Below the pieces are notes generated by a model, which was not told where the DNA came from, did not search any database, and worked only from the letters and a program-made list of their open reading frames with translations. Shown piece by piece: positions 13,711 to 23,631 of a stretch of 42,096 nucleotides of DNA. The DNA is from Rubrobacter calidifluminis (GTDB lineage Bacteria; Actinomycetota; Rubrobacteria; Rubrobacterales; Rubrobacteraceae). Location: the NCBI RefSeq assembly GCF_028617075.1, contig NZ_JAQKGV010000020.1:1-42096 (forward strand). Direction: 5' to 3'. The translations under genes were made by a program, and so were the position numbers. Position 1 is the stretch's first letter, and the number at the start of each line of letters is the position of its first letter.

Positions 13711-14060
13711 GCCCGGCAAAATACAGAGCACATACCAAAACATACGGTCCAGGATGCAATCATCCGGCGGGAGAAAAGTTCTCCGCCGTATAACGGCCTC
13801 CTCTCTCAGATCTGTTTCATGATGTCGGGGAAAATCATCCACACCAATACGTTCAAGATTCGCTCCACCACGCTCTCACGGCATCCTGGAAGGAAATCCC
13901 CCTTCCCGGGGTGTCGCCCTCGACCACGGTTCGCCCCCGACGATGAGCAGCCCCGCCGGCTACACATGCAGGGTGCAGACCTCGGGTATGATGTGGTTCC
14001 GGTGAAGAGCTTGATGACATGCCGGTTGCAACACGTCACCGGGCAAGAGGAGAGGGAGGA
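13711..14060. other. Intergenic region upstream of thymidine phosphorylase
   Basis: No gene is supported; the short frames on both strands lack a ribosome site or family resemblance. It contains a hairpin just after the aldehyde dehydrogenase (separate entry) and presumably the promoter of the nucleoside phosphorylase / BchNB-like operon; the AT-richer part around 13985-14035 is the likeliest place. Confidence 0.5.
13765..13788 (+). terminator. Hairpin after the frameshifted aldehyde dehydrogenase, possible terminator
   Basis: CGGCGGGAGAA (13765-13775) and TTCTCCGCCG (13779-13788) form a 10-bp stem with one bulged G and a three-base loop. No T tract follows, so the terminator role is tentative. 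Confidence 0.45.
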
Positions 14061-15344
14061 ATGGTGGCCGGTAGCCGGGGAATACTCGAGGCCATAGAAG
14101 TCAAGAAGCGGGGAGGTGAGCTCTCGCAGGCGACGATAGAGGAAGTCGTCGACGGGTACACGGCGGGTGAAATCCCCGACTACCAGATGTCCGCCCTACT
14201 CATGGCGATCCTGCTGAAGGGCATGAACTACGGGGAGACGCTCGCGATGACCCGGGCGATGGCGTACTCCGGGAAGCACTATTCGTTTCCGGGATGCGCC
14301 GACAAGCACTCCACGGGCGGGGTCGGAGACAAGGTCTCGCTCACCGCTCTCCCCGTCGCCGCCGCCTGCGGGCTCCCGGTCGCCAAGCTCTCCGGCCGGG
14401 GGCTGGGGACGACGGGTGGGACGGTGGACAAGCTCGAGTCCATCCCCGGCTTTTCGTGCGCGCTCACGGAGGATCGCTTCCGGAGGCAGGTCGAGGAGGT
14501 GGGGATCGCGATCGGAGAGGCCGGGGAGGTCGCTCCGGCGGATCGGGCGATCTACGCCTTGAGGGACGCGACCGCGACGGTGGACTCGCTGCCGCTCATC
14601 GCATCCTCGATCGTCTCCAAGAAGGTGGCCACCGGCGCGGAGTTTTTGCTCTACGACGTGAAGTGCGGCTCGGGAGCGTTCATGAGGAGCGTGGAGGACG
14701 CCCGCGAGCTAGCCGGGACGCTCGTTCGGCTGAGCGGTCAGTTCGGCATCTCCGCCTCGGCGATCATCACCGGGATGGACGAGCCGCTGGGCAGCGCCGT
14801 CGGCAACGCGCTCGAGGTGCGGGAGGCCGTGCGGTTCCTGCAGGAAGCGCCCGTACGGGAGGACCTCTCCGAGACCGCGAAAGCCGTCGCCTCGCGCCTG
14901 CTCTCGCTCGCGGGGCGGGAGGAACCCGGACGGGAGGTCGAGCGGGCCATCTCCTCGGGAGCGGCCTACGAGACCTTCCTCCGCCTCGTCGCCGCCCAGG
15001 GGGGCGACCCCTCGGCGCTCGACGCCCTCCCCGTCTCCGGTGAGGTCGAGAGCGTGAGAGCCCCCCGCGACGGTTACGTCGCCCGGTTCGACGCCCGCCT
15101 CGTCGGAGAGGCGGCGCTGCTGCTCGGCGCCGGGAGGCAGAAGAAAGGGGAGGCTGTAGACCCCGGCGTTGGCGTCGAGGTACTCGTCCGGGTTGGGGAC
15201 AGGGTCGGGCGCGGGCAGGAGGTAGCACTCCTCTACCACAGGTCGGGCAGGGGCCTCGAAGGGGCCAGGAGGTTGCTCACGCGCTCGCTCGAACTGACCG
15301 ATGAGCCATCCTCCCCTCCCCCTGCTATCCTTGAGGTTTTGTAG
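14061..15344 (+). CDS. deoA: Pyrimidine-nucleoside / thymidine phosphorylase
   Basis: Cytosolic phosphorylase of 427 residues that splits thymidine, deoxyuridine or uridine with phosphate to base and (deoxy)ribose 1-phosphate. N-terminal helical domain (DYQMSALLMAILLKGM), the phosphate/glycosyl-transferase signature SGRGLGTTGGTVDKLESIPG, the KHSTGGVGDK phosphate loop, DVKCGSGAFM with its conserved lysine, and a C-terminal biotinyl-like domain (VGRGQEVALLY). The ATG at 14061 has a GGGAGGA site. The purine phosphorylase follows within 30 bases, making a nucleoside-salvage pair at the head of an operon that continues into the BchN/BchB-like genes. Thymidine versus broad pyrimidine specificity is not resolved. 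Confidence 0.9.
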   Translation: MVAGSRGILEAIEVKKRGGELSQATIEEVVDGYTAGEIPDYQMSALLMAILLKGMNYGETLAMTRAMAYSGKHYSFPGCADKHSTGGVGDKVSLTALPVAAACGLPVAKLSGRGLGTTGGTVDKLESIPGFSCALTEDRFRRQVEEVGIAIGEAGEVAPADRAIYALRDATATVDSLPLIASSIVSKKVATGAEFLLYDVKCGSGAFMRSVEDARELAGTLVRLSGQFGISASAIITGMDEPLGSAVGNALEVREAVRFLQEAPVREDLSETAKAVASRLLSLAGREEPGREVERAISSGAAYETFLRLVAAQGGDPSALDALPVSGEVESVRAPRDGYVARFDARLVGEAALLLGAGRQKKGEAVDPGVGVEVLVRVGDRVGRGQEVALLYHRSGRGLEGARRLLTRSLELTDEPSSPPPAILEVL

Positions 15345-15373: not shown

Positions 15374-16105
15374 TTGAGCCCGGTCCACCTGCGCGCCGAG
15401 CCGGGAGACTACGCCGAGAACGTGCTCTTGCCGGGCGATCCCCGGCGGGCGCGCTACGTAGCAGAGAACTTCTTCAAGGAGGCCCGGCTCGTCAACGAGG
15501 AGCGCGGGATGCTAGGTTACACCGGCACCTACAAAGGCCGTCCCGTCTCGGTGCAGACGACCGGGATGGGGTGCCCGAGCGCCTCCATCGTGACGGAAGA
15601 GCTGCTGCAGCTCGGAGCCAGGAACCTCCTCAGGGTCGGGACCTGCGGCGGGTACCACCCGGACATGCAACTCGGGGACCTCGTCATCGCCACCGCTGCG
15701 ACCCCGCTCGACGGCACCGTCTCCAAGCTCACCCGCGGGCTGCCCTACGCCCCGGCGGCCAGCTTCGACATCGTCCACGCCGCCCACCACGCCGCGCAGG
15801 GATCGGGCAGGAAGGTCTTCACCGGGCCGGTCGTCAGCTCCGATCTTTTCTATGATCCCATGCCGCATCCGAAAGAGACGTGGGGCAAGTTCGGTGTTCT
15901 CGCCGTCGAGATGGAGGCCGCGGCCATCTTCACCCTGGCCGCGATGCACGGGGCAAGGGCGGGTTGTCTCCTCACCGTATCCGACACCTTCACCGAGCAG
16001 GAGGCCGTGCGGATCTCGGACGCGGCCCTGAGGGATGCGGTGGATGGCATGGTGGAACTGGCACTCGAGACCCTCTGCGCGCTAGACTGGCGCTCTGGGG
16101 GATAG
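15374..16105 (+). CDS. deoD: Purine-nucleoside phosphorylase, DeoD type
   Basis: Hexameric-type (NP-I family) purine nucleoside phosphorylase, 243 residues. Signatures: phosphate loop VLLPGDPRRARYVAENF, TTGMGCPSASIVTEELLQLG, RVGTCGGYHPDMQLGDLVI, the sugar-binding VEMEAAAIFTLA and the base-binding SDTF segment with the catalytic Asp. The start is TTG at 15374 behind a GGAGGGAGG stretch. It converts (deoxy)inosine, guanosine or adenosine plus phosphate to base and sugar phosphate. Neighbours are thymidine phosphorylase upstream and the BchN-like gene 26 bases downstream. Confidence 0.9.
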   Translation: MSPVHLRAEPGDYAENVLLPGDPRRARYVAENFFKEARLVNEERGMLGYTGTYKGRPVSVQTTGMGCPSASIVTEELLQLGARNLLRVGTCGGYHPDMQLGDLVIATAATPLDGTVSKLTRGLPYAPAASFDIVHAAHHAAQGSGRKVFTGPVVSSDLFYDPMPHPKETWGKFGVLAVEMEAAAIFTLAAMHGARAGCLLTVSDTFTEQEAVRISDAALRDAVDGMVELALETLCALDWRSGG

Positions 16106-16131: not shown

Positions 16132-17451
16132 TTGACCATCCTCGACGAAGCAGGCATACCCGATGTGCTCTCACCGCTTTGCGGTCTGAGGAGCCTCTCC
16201 GGTCAACTGCCCGACGTGCTCATCGTCCTCGTCGGAACCCGCTCTGAAGTACACCTGTCCCGCCTGCTGCCGGGAGCCCTGACCTCGGACTACTCACCGG
16301 GAGAGCGGGTTCGGTTCATCCTGCTCGACCCGGAGACGAAGGTGAGACAGGGGAGCGTGGCCTCCGGCGTAGCCGAGGCGGCCGACGGCCTGAGAGGGAT
16401 CGCCGCGGTGTTCGTGGTCTGCGGGCGTACCGCCAGGTACCTGGGAGTCGACCCCGCCTTCGAAGCCCGGCTCGCGGAGAGAAGACTGGGGGTTCCGGTC
16501 CGGTCGGTCGGACTCGAGCCCGAAGGCCCACGCGTCCTGTCGACCGATCTGGAGGACCGGGTGCTGGCGGCGCTCGTCAGCCTGTGCCCGGCGGCCACGG
16601 CCGAGAATCCCGCCCCCCCGCCACCGAAGGGCAGCACCGGGCGGCTGTTCGGAAACCTATTCGTGACCGGAAGGGTGCAGAGGCAGGCCAGGGAACGCCC
16701 CCGTCGGGTGGTCCTCCTCGGGGCCGGCGTTCCCCCCCGTGCCTGGCAGGAGCTCGCCTCGGAGTTCGACCGGCTCGGGATCGAGGTAGCAGGCGGGCTG
16801 CCGGGGCTCGGAGCGGCAAGCCTGCCCGCCCTGGGCGAAGGGGTGGTAGCGGCCGTCTGCTCACCCTACCTGCCGACTGCGGCCCGGGCTGCGGCCGAAC
16901 GCGGCGTGCTGGTGGTGCGCAGTTTGGTCCCGATCGGGATCGGGGGCACCTCGCGGTTTCTGCAGGACGTGGCCCTGGCCGCAGGCCTTGAGGCGGAGCG
17001 GACATCCAGGCCGAACTCGGCCCACGAGGAGCTCGAGTCTCTCAGGAGCCGTATCCGGGGCAAGAGGATCTTCTTCGCCGGTGACACCGGGCTCGAGCTG
17101 CCGCTGGCGCGCTTCCTGGCGGACGCCGGGGCGGTCATCGTGGAGGTGGGCGTACCGCGCCTCGACCGCCGGGTGCTCTCTGCGGAGATACAGGCGCTCG
17201 GAGGCGAGGTGGACGTGGTGGAGGCCCCGGATCCTGAGGGACAGATGGAGCGTATCGAAAGGAGTCATCCTGACATCGTCGTCGCGAGTGCCGGTCTGTA
17301 CGTTCCCCTCACCGCCCGGGGATGGCTGTGCTGCCTGAGCACCGAACTCGTGCAGCTCGGGGTCTACGGCTACGCAGGAGCCCGAAGGGTGCTCGGGTTT
17401 TTCTGCGACATCCTGGATCGGGCCGGTGATCTGGACTCGATAAAGCTGTGA
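16132..17451 (+). CDS. BchN-like subunit of a nitrogenase/protochlorophyllide-reductase-type complex
   Basis: A 439-residue protein homologous to BchN/ChlN, the alpha-like subunit of dark-operative protochlorophyllide reductase. The match runs end to end: LCGLRSLSGQLPDVLIVLVG against the CGL...DSFFLV.GT start, and near the C-terminus GLYVPLTARGW...YGYAGARRVLGF against GLANPLEARG...HGFAG. In BchN three cysteines hold the [4Fe-4S] NB cluster. Here Cys17 aligns with the first, Glu39 (VGTRSE) stands where GTKTC has the second, and Arg99 where the third lies, with Cys97 two residues earlier. The start is TTG at 16132 with GGAGAGGA 12 bases upstream. It overlaps the BchB-like gene by GTGA. The organism type makes chlorophyll synthesis unlikely. 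Confidence 0.82.
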   Translation: MTILDEAGIPDVLSPLCGLRSLSGQLPDVLIVLVGTRSEVHLSRLLPGALTSDYSPGERVRFILLDPETKVRQGSVASGVAEAADGLRGIAAVFVVCGRTARYLGVDPAFEARLAERRLGVPVRSVGLEPEGPRVLSTDLEDRVLAALVSLCPAATAENPAPPPPKGSTGRLFGNLFVTGRVQRQARERPRRVVLLGAGVPPRAWQELASEFDRLGIEVAGGLPGLGAASLPALGEGVVAAVCSPYLPTAARAAAERGVLVVRSLVPIGIGGTSRFLQDVALAAGLEAERTSRPNSAHEELESLRSRIRGKRIFFAGDTGLELPLARFLADAGAVIVEVGVPRLDRRVLSAEIQALGGEVDVVEAPDPEGQMERIERSHPDIVVASAGLYVPLTARGWLCCLSTELVQLGVYGYAGARRVLGFFCDILDRAGDLDSIKL

Positions 17452-18866
17452 GAGTGGTCTCGGGCGTCTACGAGGGCCCTTCGGCTCACGGCATCCTGAG
17501 GGTGGCCGCGAGCCTGAAGGACGTGTGGGTAATCTTCCGGGCTTCCGCCCACGAGGAGTACTTCCAGGTCCTCTGGGGCCCCTGGGCGCGCTTCGAGGAT
17601 CGCGCACCCGTCTCGCTCAGCCCGGCGGGCGGGGGGACGGAAGATCTGGAGAAGGACATACTCGAGGCCGTGCGGCGGCATCCCGAGGTCGGCGCCGTCA
17701 TCGTGGCCCGCTCGGATTCCGCGCTGCTCTCGGGAGAAGGAGTGCCCGAGGTGAGGCTGCCGGCAAGAGAAGATCGTCCCCGCCGCCTCTTCAGGTGCCC
17801 CTGGCAGGGGCCGGGGATCGGCGAGAACGAGGCCGCTGATCTCATGCTCGCCGAACTCGTCCGGGAGTACGCGGTTCCGCAGGAGAAGACGCCCGAGCCT
17901 TCGGTCAACCTCTTCGGCGCCCCGGTGCTGGACCCGAGGGCGGAGGCCGAGATGGACGAACTGCAGCGGCTCCTCGAGGACCTCGGCGTAGAGGTGAACG
18001 CACGGGTGCCGCTCGGAGCGAGCCTGGAGGATCTACGCAACATGCCCCGGGCGTGGGCGAACGTAGTCCTCTACAGGGAGGTCAGCGAGTCGGCCACCCG
18101 CTTCCTCAAGGAGCGCTTCGGGATGCCGAGGATAACCACCCCCATGATCGGCTCCGCAGGCACCGGGGCCGCGCTGCGGGCGGTAGGGGAGATGTGCTCG
18201 ATAGACGGGGAGCGCGTCAGGAAGCTCGTCTTCCGTGAGCTGGCGCGGACGGCGAAGCTCCCGTGGTATACGCGGCTGCTCAGCCCCCGGGTCCTGCGCG
18301 GGAAGAAAGTCGCGATCTTCGGAGATTTCACCTACGCGGTGGGGCTAGGTTACGCCCTCTCGCGCGAGGTCGGGGCAGAGATCGCCTGGAGCGGGACCTA
18401 CCTATCCCACCTCGAGCACGACTTCGCGTTCCATGCCGGCACGTTCACCGAAAAGACCTTCGTCGCCGAAGACCCGGGGGAGGTAGCTCTGAGGGTGGAG
18501 CGCACCCGCCCGGACCTGCTCATAGCGACACACTTCGAACGCGAGGCCGCCGGGCACGCCGGCGCATCCTTCCTCCCGCTCTGTCCTCCGGCCGCGGTAT
18601 ATCCTTTCGTCCGCCTGCCGCTCATGGGATACCGGGGGGCGGCCCTGCTGGCCGACGCGGTGGACGGGGCGCTGCGCCGCGCACGCAGATCCTCCCCGGA
18701 AACGGGACCACCGGAAGAGCCCGTGTGGACCGGCGAGGCGCTCGCCGCCCTCGAGGAGATCCCGGCGTTCCTGCGGGGACGGGCGCGCAGGCTCGCCGAG
18801 AAGCGGGCTAGGGAGCTGGGCGAGCGCAGAATCACCCGCGAGATCCTGGAGGATTCGAGGTTCTAG
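17448..18866 (+). CDS. BchB-like subunit of a nitrogenase/protochlorophyllide-reductase-type complex
   Basis: A 472-residue homologue of BchB/ChlB. The N-terminus aligns without gaps to BchB (YEGPSAHGILRVAASLK against YEGPPH.GAMR.AT), which puts Glu36 where BchB has the cluster ligand Asp36. The middle and C-terminal domains follow BchB: VAIFGDFTYAVGLGYALS, SGTYLSHLEHDFAF, ATHFEREAAGH, RLPLMGYRGAALLAD. A PCP_red domain ends the protein (WTGEALAALEEIPAFLRG to ITREILEDSRF). LPWY-TRLLS at 271-279 has Ser279 where BchB reads VDS, which I believe is the proton-donor Asp. Translation is coupled to the BchN-like gene (GTG in GTGA). The protein is about 50 residues shorter than typical BchB. Confidence 0.83.
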   Translation: MRVVSGVYEGPSAHGILRVAASLKDVWVIFRASAHEEYFQVLWGPWARFEDRAPVSLSPAGGGTEDLEKDILEAVRRHPEVGAVIVARSDSALLSGEGVPEVRLPAREDRPRRLFRCPWQGPGIGENEAADLMLAELVREYAVPQEKTPEPSVNLFGAPVLDPRAEAEMDELQRLLEDLGVEVNARVPLGASLEDLRNMPRAWANVVLYREVSESATRFLKERFGMPRITTPMIGSAGTGAALRAVGEMCSIDGERVRKLVFRELARTAKLPWYTRLLSPRVLRGKKVAIFGDFTYAVGLGYALSREVGAEIAWSGTYLSHLEHDFAFHAGTFTEKTFVAEDPGEVALRVERTRPDLLIATHFEREAAGHAGASFLPLCPPAAVYPFVRLPLMGYRGAALLADAVDGALRRARRSSPETGPPEEPVWTGEALAALEEIPAFLRGRARRLAEKRARELGERRITREILEDSRF

Positions 18867-18878
18867 AGGAGGTCTGTC

Positions 18879-19154
18879 TTGGGAATACGGGACTTCATCC
18901 GTTACCTGGAGGAGCACGAGGAGAGGGCACAGAGGGCCGCGGAGCTCTCGCCAGAGGAGCGACGGGAGACGCTGCACCAGGCGGAGCTGATGGTCGGGAT
19001 GGCCGACCAGGCAGTGAAGTACCTGGAGTCGGTCCTGGTGAACCGCCGGGTCAACCTGAACGAGGAGCACGCGCTCCGCTTCGCCCAGGACGTCTTCCTG
19101 TACCTGAAGGACAGGGAGGAGAGGGTCAAGGAGAGGCTCTCAGAAGGGAGCTAA
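18879..19154 (+). CDS. Small helical protein of unknown function, coupled to the BchNB-like genes
   Basis: A 91-residue acidic protein, rich in Glu, Arg and Leu, predicted to be almost wholly helical (IRDFIRYLEEHEERAQRAAEL, then AELMVGMADQAVKYLESVL and ALRFAQDVFLYLKDREERV). It has no signal peptide, membrane segment, cysteines or metal motif. The start is TTG at 18879 with a GAGGAGG site, 12 bases after the BchB-like stop. It ends four bases inside the convergent thiolase gene. I do not recognise the family. Its position suggests a small accessory or assembly factor of the BchNB-like complex, but that is only context. Confidence 0.65.
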   Translation: MGIRDFIRYLEEHEERAQRAAELSPEERRETLHQAELMVGMADQAVKYLESVLVNRRVNLNEEHALRFAQDVFLYLKDREERVKERLSEGS

Positions 19155-22020: not shown

Positions 22021-23631
22021 TTACCCGGAGACCACCTCAGAGAGCGCGCCGGAGCGGATGATCTCTGCGGCCTCCTCTATATCTTGGTCCATCCTGCGGT
22101 CGGCCTCCAGGAAAGGCACCCGCGAGCGCACCAGCTCGAGCGCGCGGCGGGTCTTCGGGCTCGCCTTCTCCTCCCCGCGCAGCTCGAGGGCCTGGCAGGC
22201 GGCGATCAGGTGTATCGACGCAATGTTCTGCGTCAACTCCACGATGGAGCGGGCGTCGCGGGCGGCGATCGCGCCCATGCTCACCTTGTCCTGGTTGTGG
22301 CACTCGGTGGATCGGGAGTGGACACTGGCGGGGGCGGAGAGCTTCATCGCTTCGGCGGTCATCGCCGAGGAGCACAGCTGCATGCCCTTGAAGCCGTGGT
22401 GGAGTCCGGCCTCGGGGCTGTCCTCGTCGAAGTAAGGGATGAGGTTGGGGGTGAGGCCCGCGTTGAACTTCTCGTCGACGAGCAGTTCGAGCTGGCGGTC
22501 CATCAGGTCGCAGAGGTTGGCGAGGGCGACCTTGAGCGAGTCCATCGCCTGAGCCATGTGCCCGGCGTAGAAGTTGCCGCCGCTCTGCACCCGGCCACCT
22601 TCGGCGTCGAAGAGCGGGTTGTCGTCCGAGGAGTTCATCTCGATCTCGACCCAGCGCCTGACCCAATCGAGGGTGTCGCGCAGCGCGCCCGAGACGTAGG
22701 GTGCGCAGCGGATCGAGTAGCGGTCCTGCACCTGGCGCTCGAGCTCGAGGAACTCCCTTCCCCCGAGCCCGTCCGTGGCGAAGATCTCCTCGGAGTCGAG
22801 CGCGAGGTGGGAGTCGGCGAGCAGGGAGCTTATGATGTGGGCGCTCTCCTTCTGCCCGGGGTGAGGCTTGTTCTCGTGGATGAAGGCGTTGAAGTGTCCC
22901 CTGTTGCCGAGCAGGGCCTCGGAGGCCATCGCGGTGCACAGGTCGGAGACGAGGGCGAGCTCTTCGGCGTCCCGGACGGCGAGCGCCGCGATGGCGGTTA
23001 TGAAGGAGGTTCCGTTGGTGAGCGCGAGCCCCTCCTTGGCCTCGAGCTCGAGCGGCTCGAGGCCGAGATCCGCGAGCACCTCGCGCGAGGGCCTGACCTC
23101 TCCCTCGTAGAGGACGTCTTCCTCCCCGACGAGCGCGGCCCCGAGGTAGGAGAGCGGGATGAGATCCCCGCTCGCCCCGCAGGAACCCCTCTCGGGCACG
23201 AGCGGCAGGATGTCTTCGTTGAGGTAGAGGAGCAGCCGCTCGACGACCTCCGGCCTGACCCCGGAGTTGCCCCGGGCCAGACAGTTGGCCCGGAGGAGCA
23301 TCATCGCCCGCGTCACCTCGGTGGGCGCGATGGGCCCCGTCCCGCAGCCGAGGAACCGGAGCATGTTCTGCTGCAGCCGGGCGGCTTTCTGCGGCGAGAT
23401 CTGCCGGTGCGCGCTGTCTCCGAAGCCGGTCGTCACGCCGTAGATGGGCACCTCGCGCCCGATCAACTCCCGCTTCAGCGCACACGAAGCCTCTACCCTC
23501 TCCCACGCATCGTCGGATAGGGTGCATACCGCCTCACCCTCGCGGCGGGCGAAGGCCACCACATCGTCTATCGTGAGCGAACGGCCGTCCAGCTCCAGCC
23601 TGAGACCGCTGCCGTGCACGACGTCTCTCAT
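22021..23631 (-). CDS. MIO-type aromatic amino acid ammonia-lyase, more phenylalanine- than histidine-like
   Basis: Lyase of 536 residues with the MIO-forming Ala153-Ser154-Gly155 (SCGASGDLIPLSYLG) and catalytic Tyr64 (YGVTTGFG). Automated annotation would probably say histidine ammonia-lyase, but the substrate-selectivity pair is Phe93-Leu94 (NMLRFLGCG). That is the FL pair of phenylalanine ammonia-lyases; histidine enzymes have SH and tyrosine enzymes HL. The later loop reads TECHNQDKVSMG, with the HNQD of phenylalanine-type enzymes and aminomutases rather than the QEDHVS of HutH. No other hut gene is near; a CoA ligase and thiolase follow. Likely reaction: L-phenylalanine to cinnamate plus ammonia. 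An operator-like dyad lies 55-70 bases upstream. Confidence 0.82.
   Translation of the reverse strand: MRDVVHGSGLRLELDGRSLTIDDVVAFARREGEAVCTLSDDAWERVEASCALKRELIGREVPIYGVTTGFGDSAHRQISPQKAARLQQNMLRFLGCGTGPIAPTEVTRAMMLLRANCLARGNSGVRPEVVERLLLYLNEDILPLVPERGSCGASGDLIPLSYLGAALVGEEDVLYEGEVRPSREVLADLGLEPLELEAKEGLALTNGTSFITAIAALAVRDAEELALVSDLCTAMASEALLGNRGHFNAFIHENKPHPGQKESAHIISSLLADSHLALDSEEIFATDGLGGREFLELERQVQDRYSIRCAPYVSGALRDTLDWVRRWVEIEMNSSDDNPLFDAEGGRVQSGGNFYAGHMAQAMDSLKVALANLCDLMDRQLELLVDEKFNAGLTPNLIPYFDEDSPEAGLHHGFKGMQLCSSAMTAEAMKLSAPASVHSRSTECHNQDKVSMGAIAARDARSIVELTQNIASIHLIAACQALELRGEEKASPKTRRALELVRSRVPFLEADRRMDQDIEEAAEIIRSGALSEVVSG

Follow-up and report, generated by a model that had tools for sequence, protein, structure and literature searches.

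The cluster of the dark-operative protochlorophyllide reductase (DPOR) is of the (Cys)3Asp type, with Asp274 acting as the proton donor and Gly409-Leu410 playing a role in the substrate segment (PMC4157233). BchN provides the three cysteines and BchB the single aspartate (PMC11423573). Three cysteines are found in each of CfbD, MarD, NfaD, BchN and BchY, whereas in the isethionate reductase-type IsrDK the count is one for IsrD and three for IsrK (PMC11423573). Throughout the literature consulted, nitrogenase-like catalytic components are Fe-S redox proteins that receive electrons from a NifH-type partner.

Gupta and Khadka reportedly described homologues of BchN and BchB in Rubrobacter in 2016. 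Their report (doi 10.1007/s11120-015-0177-y), mentioned in the original prediction for the locus described here, exists and is cited in PMC4773611, PMC7203096 and PMC9561532; the passages of these texts that discuss it take the homologues as possibly ancestral and chlorophyll-related. The B and N genes are shared across Rubrobacter, where they are the sole bacteriochlorophyll genes (PMC7901476). They are apparently unconnected to phototrophy (PMC9561532), and a different function has been speculated (PMC7203096). High expression of subunit B has been predicted in R. xylanophilus (PMC4510606). The presence of BchN/B in Rubrobacter is therefore already published, and the homologues belong to the same protein family as the N and B proteins analyzed here. 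No prior report of ligand loss, of an operon or of a third protein was found in the literature, where Gupta and Khadka is represented by the texts citing it.

Here, we analyze the gene pair in a window of 42,096 nucleotides, which corresponds to contig 20 of the Rubrobacter calidifluminis genome (3.09 Mb, 54 contigs, 96% complete). The order-wide loss of all cluster ligands appears to be new, as do a conserved nucleoside-phosphorylase operon and a third protein of 91 aa, both absent from the original prediction. We consider a cluster-free NB derivative, repurposed beside nucleoside catabolism, to be the best overall explanation and a probable one.

Homology and structure of the gene pair

The N gene (16132-17451, forward strand) encodes a BchN-like subunit of 439 aa lacking all three cluster cysteines. 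Its TTG start is preceded by the ribosome-binding-like motif GGAGAGG. The B gene (17448-18866, forward strand) encodes a BchB-like subunit of 472 aa from a GTG start, and the two reading frames share 4 bases. The extent of the pair, 16132-18866, had been predicted correctly. The TTG start of N, a rare start, is unusually conserved and kept in nearly all loci read (window position 16132 and homologues L078-L100). The nearest named relative of the B protein is 'Rubrobacteraceae bacterium HOT.MB2.74' with 90% identity.

Both proteins match PF00148 in Pfam profile searches (N, 78.7 bits, E 5e-22; B, 154.3 bits, E 6e-45), and B carries a C-terminal PCP_red domain (PF08369; residues 427-469 at 18726-18854, forward strand; 51 bits, E 1.5e-13). 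The four DPOR equivalog models are the nearest NCBIfam families, yet every score falls well under its cut-off. N reaches 206 bits against TIGR01279 DPOR_bchN (E 9e-61; curated cut-off 420) and B reaches 280 bits against TIGR01278 DPOR_BchB (E 5e-83; curated cut-off 490), with 195 and 415 bits for NF002768 and NF002789 (cut-offs 324 and 509, respectively). The best PDB sequence matches are ChlN/BchN for N (E 5e-35) and ChlB/BchB for B (E 3e-53). The predicted model of N (pLDDT 82, pTM 0.82) aligns with BchN (8vqh_C) at Z 42.4 and 3.0 A over 387 residues in VIA-align, followed by BchB and nitrogenase chains at about Z 30; the top rows of these lists hold nitrogenase-type folds only and say nothing on other folds. 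Confidence in the B model is moderate (pLDDT 72, with residues 317-341 and 379-422 below 50); it aligns with BchB at Z 23, the rmsd being high owing to loosely placed domains.

N and B are homologous to the DPOR NB subunits far beyond chance and have the NB fold. The likeness to both subunits including the C-terminal PCP_red, noticed in the original prediction, is confirmed by the profile searches, PDB matches and subunit models. The PF00148 fold and the subunit gene pair of a nitrogenase-like (NifDK-type) catalytic component are present. The pair resembles the DPOR NB protein (PDB 3aek, 2ynm, 2xdq, 8vqh) in both subunit folds, the N-B gene order and PCP_red on B, but lacks the cluster cysteines, Asp274 and BchL, has Glu for Asp36, and has a shortened substrate-contacting segment. 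As the ancestry and fold are those of BchN/BchB yet the functional features defining DPOR are missing, we classify the pair as a variant of the NB family.

The former cluster site

The alignment comprised 32 N and 34 B homologues of Rubrobacterales, canonical BchN/BchB pairs of Roseobacter litoralis, Novosphingobium capsulatum and Ca. Thiodictyon syntrophicum (L105-L107), and two other actinobacterial sets (L101 and L102). The canonical pairs and the two actinobacterial sets keep all three Cys and the Asp, whereas none of the 32 N homologues has Cys at any of the three BchN ligand columns. All codons given below are on the forward strand. The column of the first BchN cysteine (R. capsulatus Cys26) is occupied by Ser14 (16171-16173), with Ser in 19, Pro in 10, His in 2 and Ala in 1 of the homologues. 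The Cys51 column holds Glu39 (16246-16248; Glu in 26, Asp in 6) and the Cys112 column holds Arg99 (16426-16428; Arg in 27, Leu in 2, Trp in 2, His in 1). On the B subunit, Glu36 (17553-17555) stands at the column of the BchB Asp36 cluster ligand and is Glu in 34/34 homologues. Asp90 (17715-17717) stands at the BchB Cys95 column, where Asp or Glu is found in 34/34, after an invariant Arg88 and Ser89. The column of the proton donor Asp274 holds Ser279 (18282-18284), which varies among Ser, Pro, Val, Arg, Thr and Ala across the 34 homologues and is never acidic. The BchB Met408-Gly409 columns and the Trp402 column are deleted in all 34. Arg31 of B is fixed in 33/34 and Arg88 in 34/34, with no Arg there in other aligned sequences. 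Windows around the former ligand columns show average to high conservation.

Glu39 and Arg99 of N as well as Glu36 and Ser279 of B thus occupy the ligand and proton-donor columns as the original prediction stated, and the ligand loss, proposed there for a check of conservation, holds across Rubrobacterales (32 N and 34 B homologues). The claim that the first cysteine is kept as Cys17 does not hold. Cys17 lies three residues past the ligand column and is Cys in 3/32 homologues, mostly being His or Tyr. Cys97 is indeed found near the third ligand position, but it is Cys in only 5/32 homologues and does not qualify as a kept ligand. Both residues were rejected as surviving ligands for being off-column or not conserved. 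With Ser14 at the first column and Cys17 off-column, all three cysteine ligands are lost, a stronger result than the earlier claim. The only conserved cysteines anywhere in the 32 N and 34 B homologues are Cys400 of N and Cys250 and Cys379 of B, and the Rubrobacterales alignment shows no conserved cysteine at the former cluster site or close to it in sequence. As read from the aligned columns, all cluster ligands are lost order-wide. A cluster requires ligands; with the canonical ones gone and no conserved cysteine near, we infer that the complex is cluster-free.

The main rival is a carboxylate-ligated metal at the old cluster site, where Glu/Asp39 of N together with Glu36 and Asp/Glu90 of B would bind Mn, Fe, Zn or Mg and create a new metalloenzyme. 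All three positions, located at two ligand columns and the BchB Cys95 column, are acidic in every homologue, and the windows round them are of average or higher conservation. However, the invariant Arg31 and Arg88 of B are close in sequence and could neutralize the acids, and no conserved His is found beside the acidic residues. We consider such a metal site improbable.

A nitrogenase-like redox enzyme still holding a [4Fe-4S] cluster with altered ligands is more improbable still, even though the fold is the same as in the DPOR NB protein, Asp36 of BchB sets a precedent for non-Cys ligation in the family, and only one of the three Cys is left in IsrD (PMC11423573). IsrDK is comparable as a nitrogenase-like catalytic component with fewer cluster cysteines, but Isr keeps four cysteines in total and the NifH-type partner IsrH, and the Rubrobacter pair has neither. 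The absence of Cys at the ligand columns in 32 N homologues, the lack of conserved Cys nearby and the lack of a NifH/BchL-type donor in 39 genomes all argue against a retained cluster. A cluster with non-Cys ligands, or one held via Cys400, Cys250 or Cys379 after rearrangement of the site, is unlikely but conceivable from the sequences. The original prediction proposed a different nitrogenase-like or cluster-free enzyme. The cluster-free option fits best, and the altered Fe-S enzyme is unsupported given that no conserved cysteine is at the site.

Absence of a reductase partner and of chlorophyll synthesis

Profile searches found no BchL over the cut-off in 39 Rubrobacterales genomes, only P-loop fragments of mostly about 40 residues. 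The lack of a BchL/NifH-type gene noticed in the window hence extends to the genome and the order (39 genomes). The search of the genome for a BchL/NifH/ParA-like partner, suggested in the original prediction, likewise returned P-loop matches with BchL over the cut-off absent. ParA/MinD-like proteins were rejected as a stand-in for BchL. Their hits are P-loop matches of mostly ~40 residues, the same models match every control genome, and none are near N/B.

No photosynthetic reaction center (Photo_RC) was found in the 39 Rubrobacterales genomes. BchH has no match in the window's genome, its two congeners or genome G001. Matches in other Rubrobacters reach up to 806 bits, under the 829-bit cut-off, and may be of the cobaltochelatase type. 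No BchM was found over the cut-off. A chlorophyll pathway was rejected based on the missing reaction center (39 genomes) and the missing BchH in the window's genome, and the full set of chlorophyll genes raised as a counter-argument in the original prediction is not there. BchL, Asp274 and the substrate segment, on which the DPOR reaction depends, have all been lost, which argues that the pair is not a protochlorophyllide reductase. We consider it very likely that the complex is both cluster-free and not DPOR. The view that ligand changes argue against protochlorophyllide reduction holds up, with ligands, proton donor, substrate segment and BchL lost across the order and BchH missing in this genome.

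The same losses, together with the missing reaction center, make it most unlikely that the pair is an ancestral or relict protochlorophyllide reductase, i.e., that actinobacteria were once phototrophic (Gupta & Khadka 2016). BchN/BchB are the closest solved homologues, and the Rubrobacter clade falls outside the sampled DPOR sequences with weak support. The underlying tree (few DPOR references, a NifEN outgroup and too-long branches) recovers the Rubrobacter clade with support 98 and weakly supports its position relative to DPOR. However, canonical BchN and other actinobacterial LNB sets have the Cys ligands, and the absence is most simply derived. The ligands are retained in canonical sets elsewhere, including within the phylum, which makes the Rubrobacter proteins appear derived. 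The cited argument for ancestral photosynthesis in Actinobacteria is weakened.

Distribution and selection

B was found in 34/39 Rubrobacterales genomes covering all 13 genera, and in 21/22 of those with completeness of 90% or more and low contamination. Once fragments and duplicated contigs are accounted for, N and B are the only PF00148 genes in these genomes. The pair is part of the core gene content of the order. When genome contigs of 84,980 species were searched with the B alignment, using two short patterns by which distant relatives would be missed, 23 loci were recovered, all in Rubrobacter(aceae) or unclassified actinobacterial records. A plasmid origin was rejected. Plasmids contained no DNA match, and the protein matches on them belong to other phyla, being either BchN/BchB or nitrogenase-type genes.

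Of 396 sampled genomes from the phylum, four that lie outside the order contained distant matches. L101 and L102 are BchL-N-B-like sets from the same phylum with homologous N and B, but unlike the Rubrobacter pair they keep all cluster ligands and a BchL/NifH gene alongside. By eye, the other two, L103 and L104, resemble nitrogenase-type loci and have a NifH-type gene next to them. The L101 set (L101:7106-10632, genome G223) has PCP_red and an Asn at the BchB proton-donor column. It adjoins radical-SAM/B12-type and multihaem cytochrome genes and may represent an actinobacterial DPOR or an enzyme resembling it. The L102 set (L102:7096-10375, genome G043) is without PCP_red, matches the BchL model with 381 bits, over the cut-off, and adjoins a 4Fe-4S membrane protein; it represents another nitrogenase-like system.

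Identity outside the genus is 45-63%, and the pair is intact in nearly all members of the 13 genera. Congeneric pairs show dN/dS of 0.16-0.20 (NG86) and 0.04-0.09 (YN00, where computable). N and B are under purifying selection, with no decay. The PCP_red domain of B is lost in four genomes of one genus-level clade (L059, L060, L063, L064), where the 91-aa gene directly follows B. In the complete genome of Rubrobacter marinus SCSIO 52915 (L083:4606-6001), N is broken into several frames and B is intact, reflecting either real loss or sequencing errors. Pseudogenes decaying from a lost chlorophyll pathway would match the broken R. marinus N gene and the B genes without PCP_red, but are hardly credible given the intact pair across 13 genera, dN/dS of about 0.04-0.2, the conserved operon and the high expression predicted for subunit B of R. 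xylanophilus (PMC4510606).

A conserved operon-like string with nucleoside phosphorylases

Five co-directional genes on the forward strand form a string in the window, with gaps of 29, 26, -4 and 12 bases. The first encodes a pyrimidine-nucleoside (thymidine) phosphorylase (14019-15344; TIGR02644, 461 bits, cut-off 409; NF004490, 468 bits, cut-off 269), followed by a DeoD-type purine-nucleoside phosphorylase (15374-16105; NF004489, 244 bits, cut-off 230; PF01048, E 7.5e-47), N, B and a 91-aa helical protein without a Pfam or NCBIfam match (18879-19154). This gene order is conserved. Among the 13 Rubrobacterales genera, the pyrimidine-nucleoside phosphorylase is adjacent in 12, the DeoD-type phosphorylase in all 13, and the 91-aa protein in 12. 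An HtrA-like protease lies downstream in 10 genera and a phosphopentomutase-type gene upstream in 8; the phosphopentomutase-type genes of the window's genome are on other contigs.

The 91-aa protein shows a weak match to TPR-like repeats only when compared to the PDB. The 34 genomes that encode it are exactly those that encode B, and it is missing from all 357 other sampled actinobacterial genomes. The five Rubrobacterales genomes without the 91-aa protein are also without B, probably due to assembly gaps. Beyond the order the co-occurrence is hence strong; inside the order it tells less.

Proposed function of the complex

We suggest that N and B form a complex derived from the BchN-BchB (NB) catalytic component that carries no cluster and has most likely remained an N2B2 heterotetramer. 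The Fe-S cluster, the NifH/BchL-type electron donor and the protochlorophyllide chemistry would have been lost and the complex repurposed in the ancestor of Rubrobacterales. At the old cluster site, fixed charged residues stand in place of the cysteines, both acidic (N Glu/Asp39, B Glu36 and B Asp/Glu90) and basic (B Arg31 and Arg88), and an Arg-Glu salt-bridge network there probably holds the N-B interface. The persisting features are the two-subunit fold, the charged interface residues, PCP_red (missing in four genomes), the operon and a dedicated small partner. Retention of PCP_red in most genomes suggests that part of the former substrate site is still important.

The complex is probably co-expressed with the pyrimidine- and purine-nucleoside phosphorylases and might work with the 91-aa protein as a non-redox ligand-binding or scaffolding complex. 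Gene order points to a link with nucleoside or (deoxy)ribose-1-phosphate metabolism. A nucleoside-linked binding or scaffold role is a tentative proposal. The nucleoside link is guilt by association, and the adjacency could be fortuitous and fixed by descent within one order. More doubtful is the proposal that the complex is a cluster-free nitrogenase-superfamily enzyme or regulator of nucleoside or (deoxy)ribose metabolism, which might have a carboxylate metal site at the old cluster position. If true, cluster-free repurposing would provide a catalytic component working without a cluster and without a reductase. A family retained order-wide minus both would show that the fold can be repurposed outside Fe-S redox chemistry. 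The nucleoside phosphorylases and the 91-aa partner provide a precise, testable link for a pair still named protochlorophyllide reductase in genome surveys.

Elsewhere in the window, a gene on the reverse strand (22021-23631) encodes an aromatic amino acid ammonia-lyase closest to the tyrosine ammonia-lyases BagA/FevW (719 bits, cut-off 1000). It adjoins acyl-CoA ligase and thiolase genes, making an aromatic acid pathway possible.
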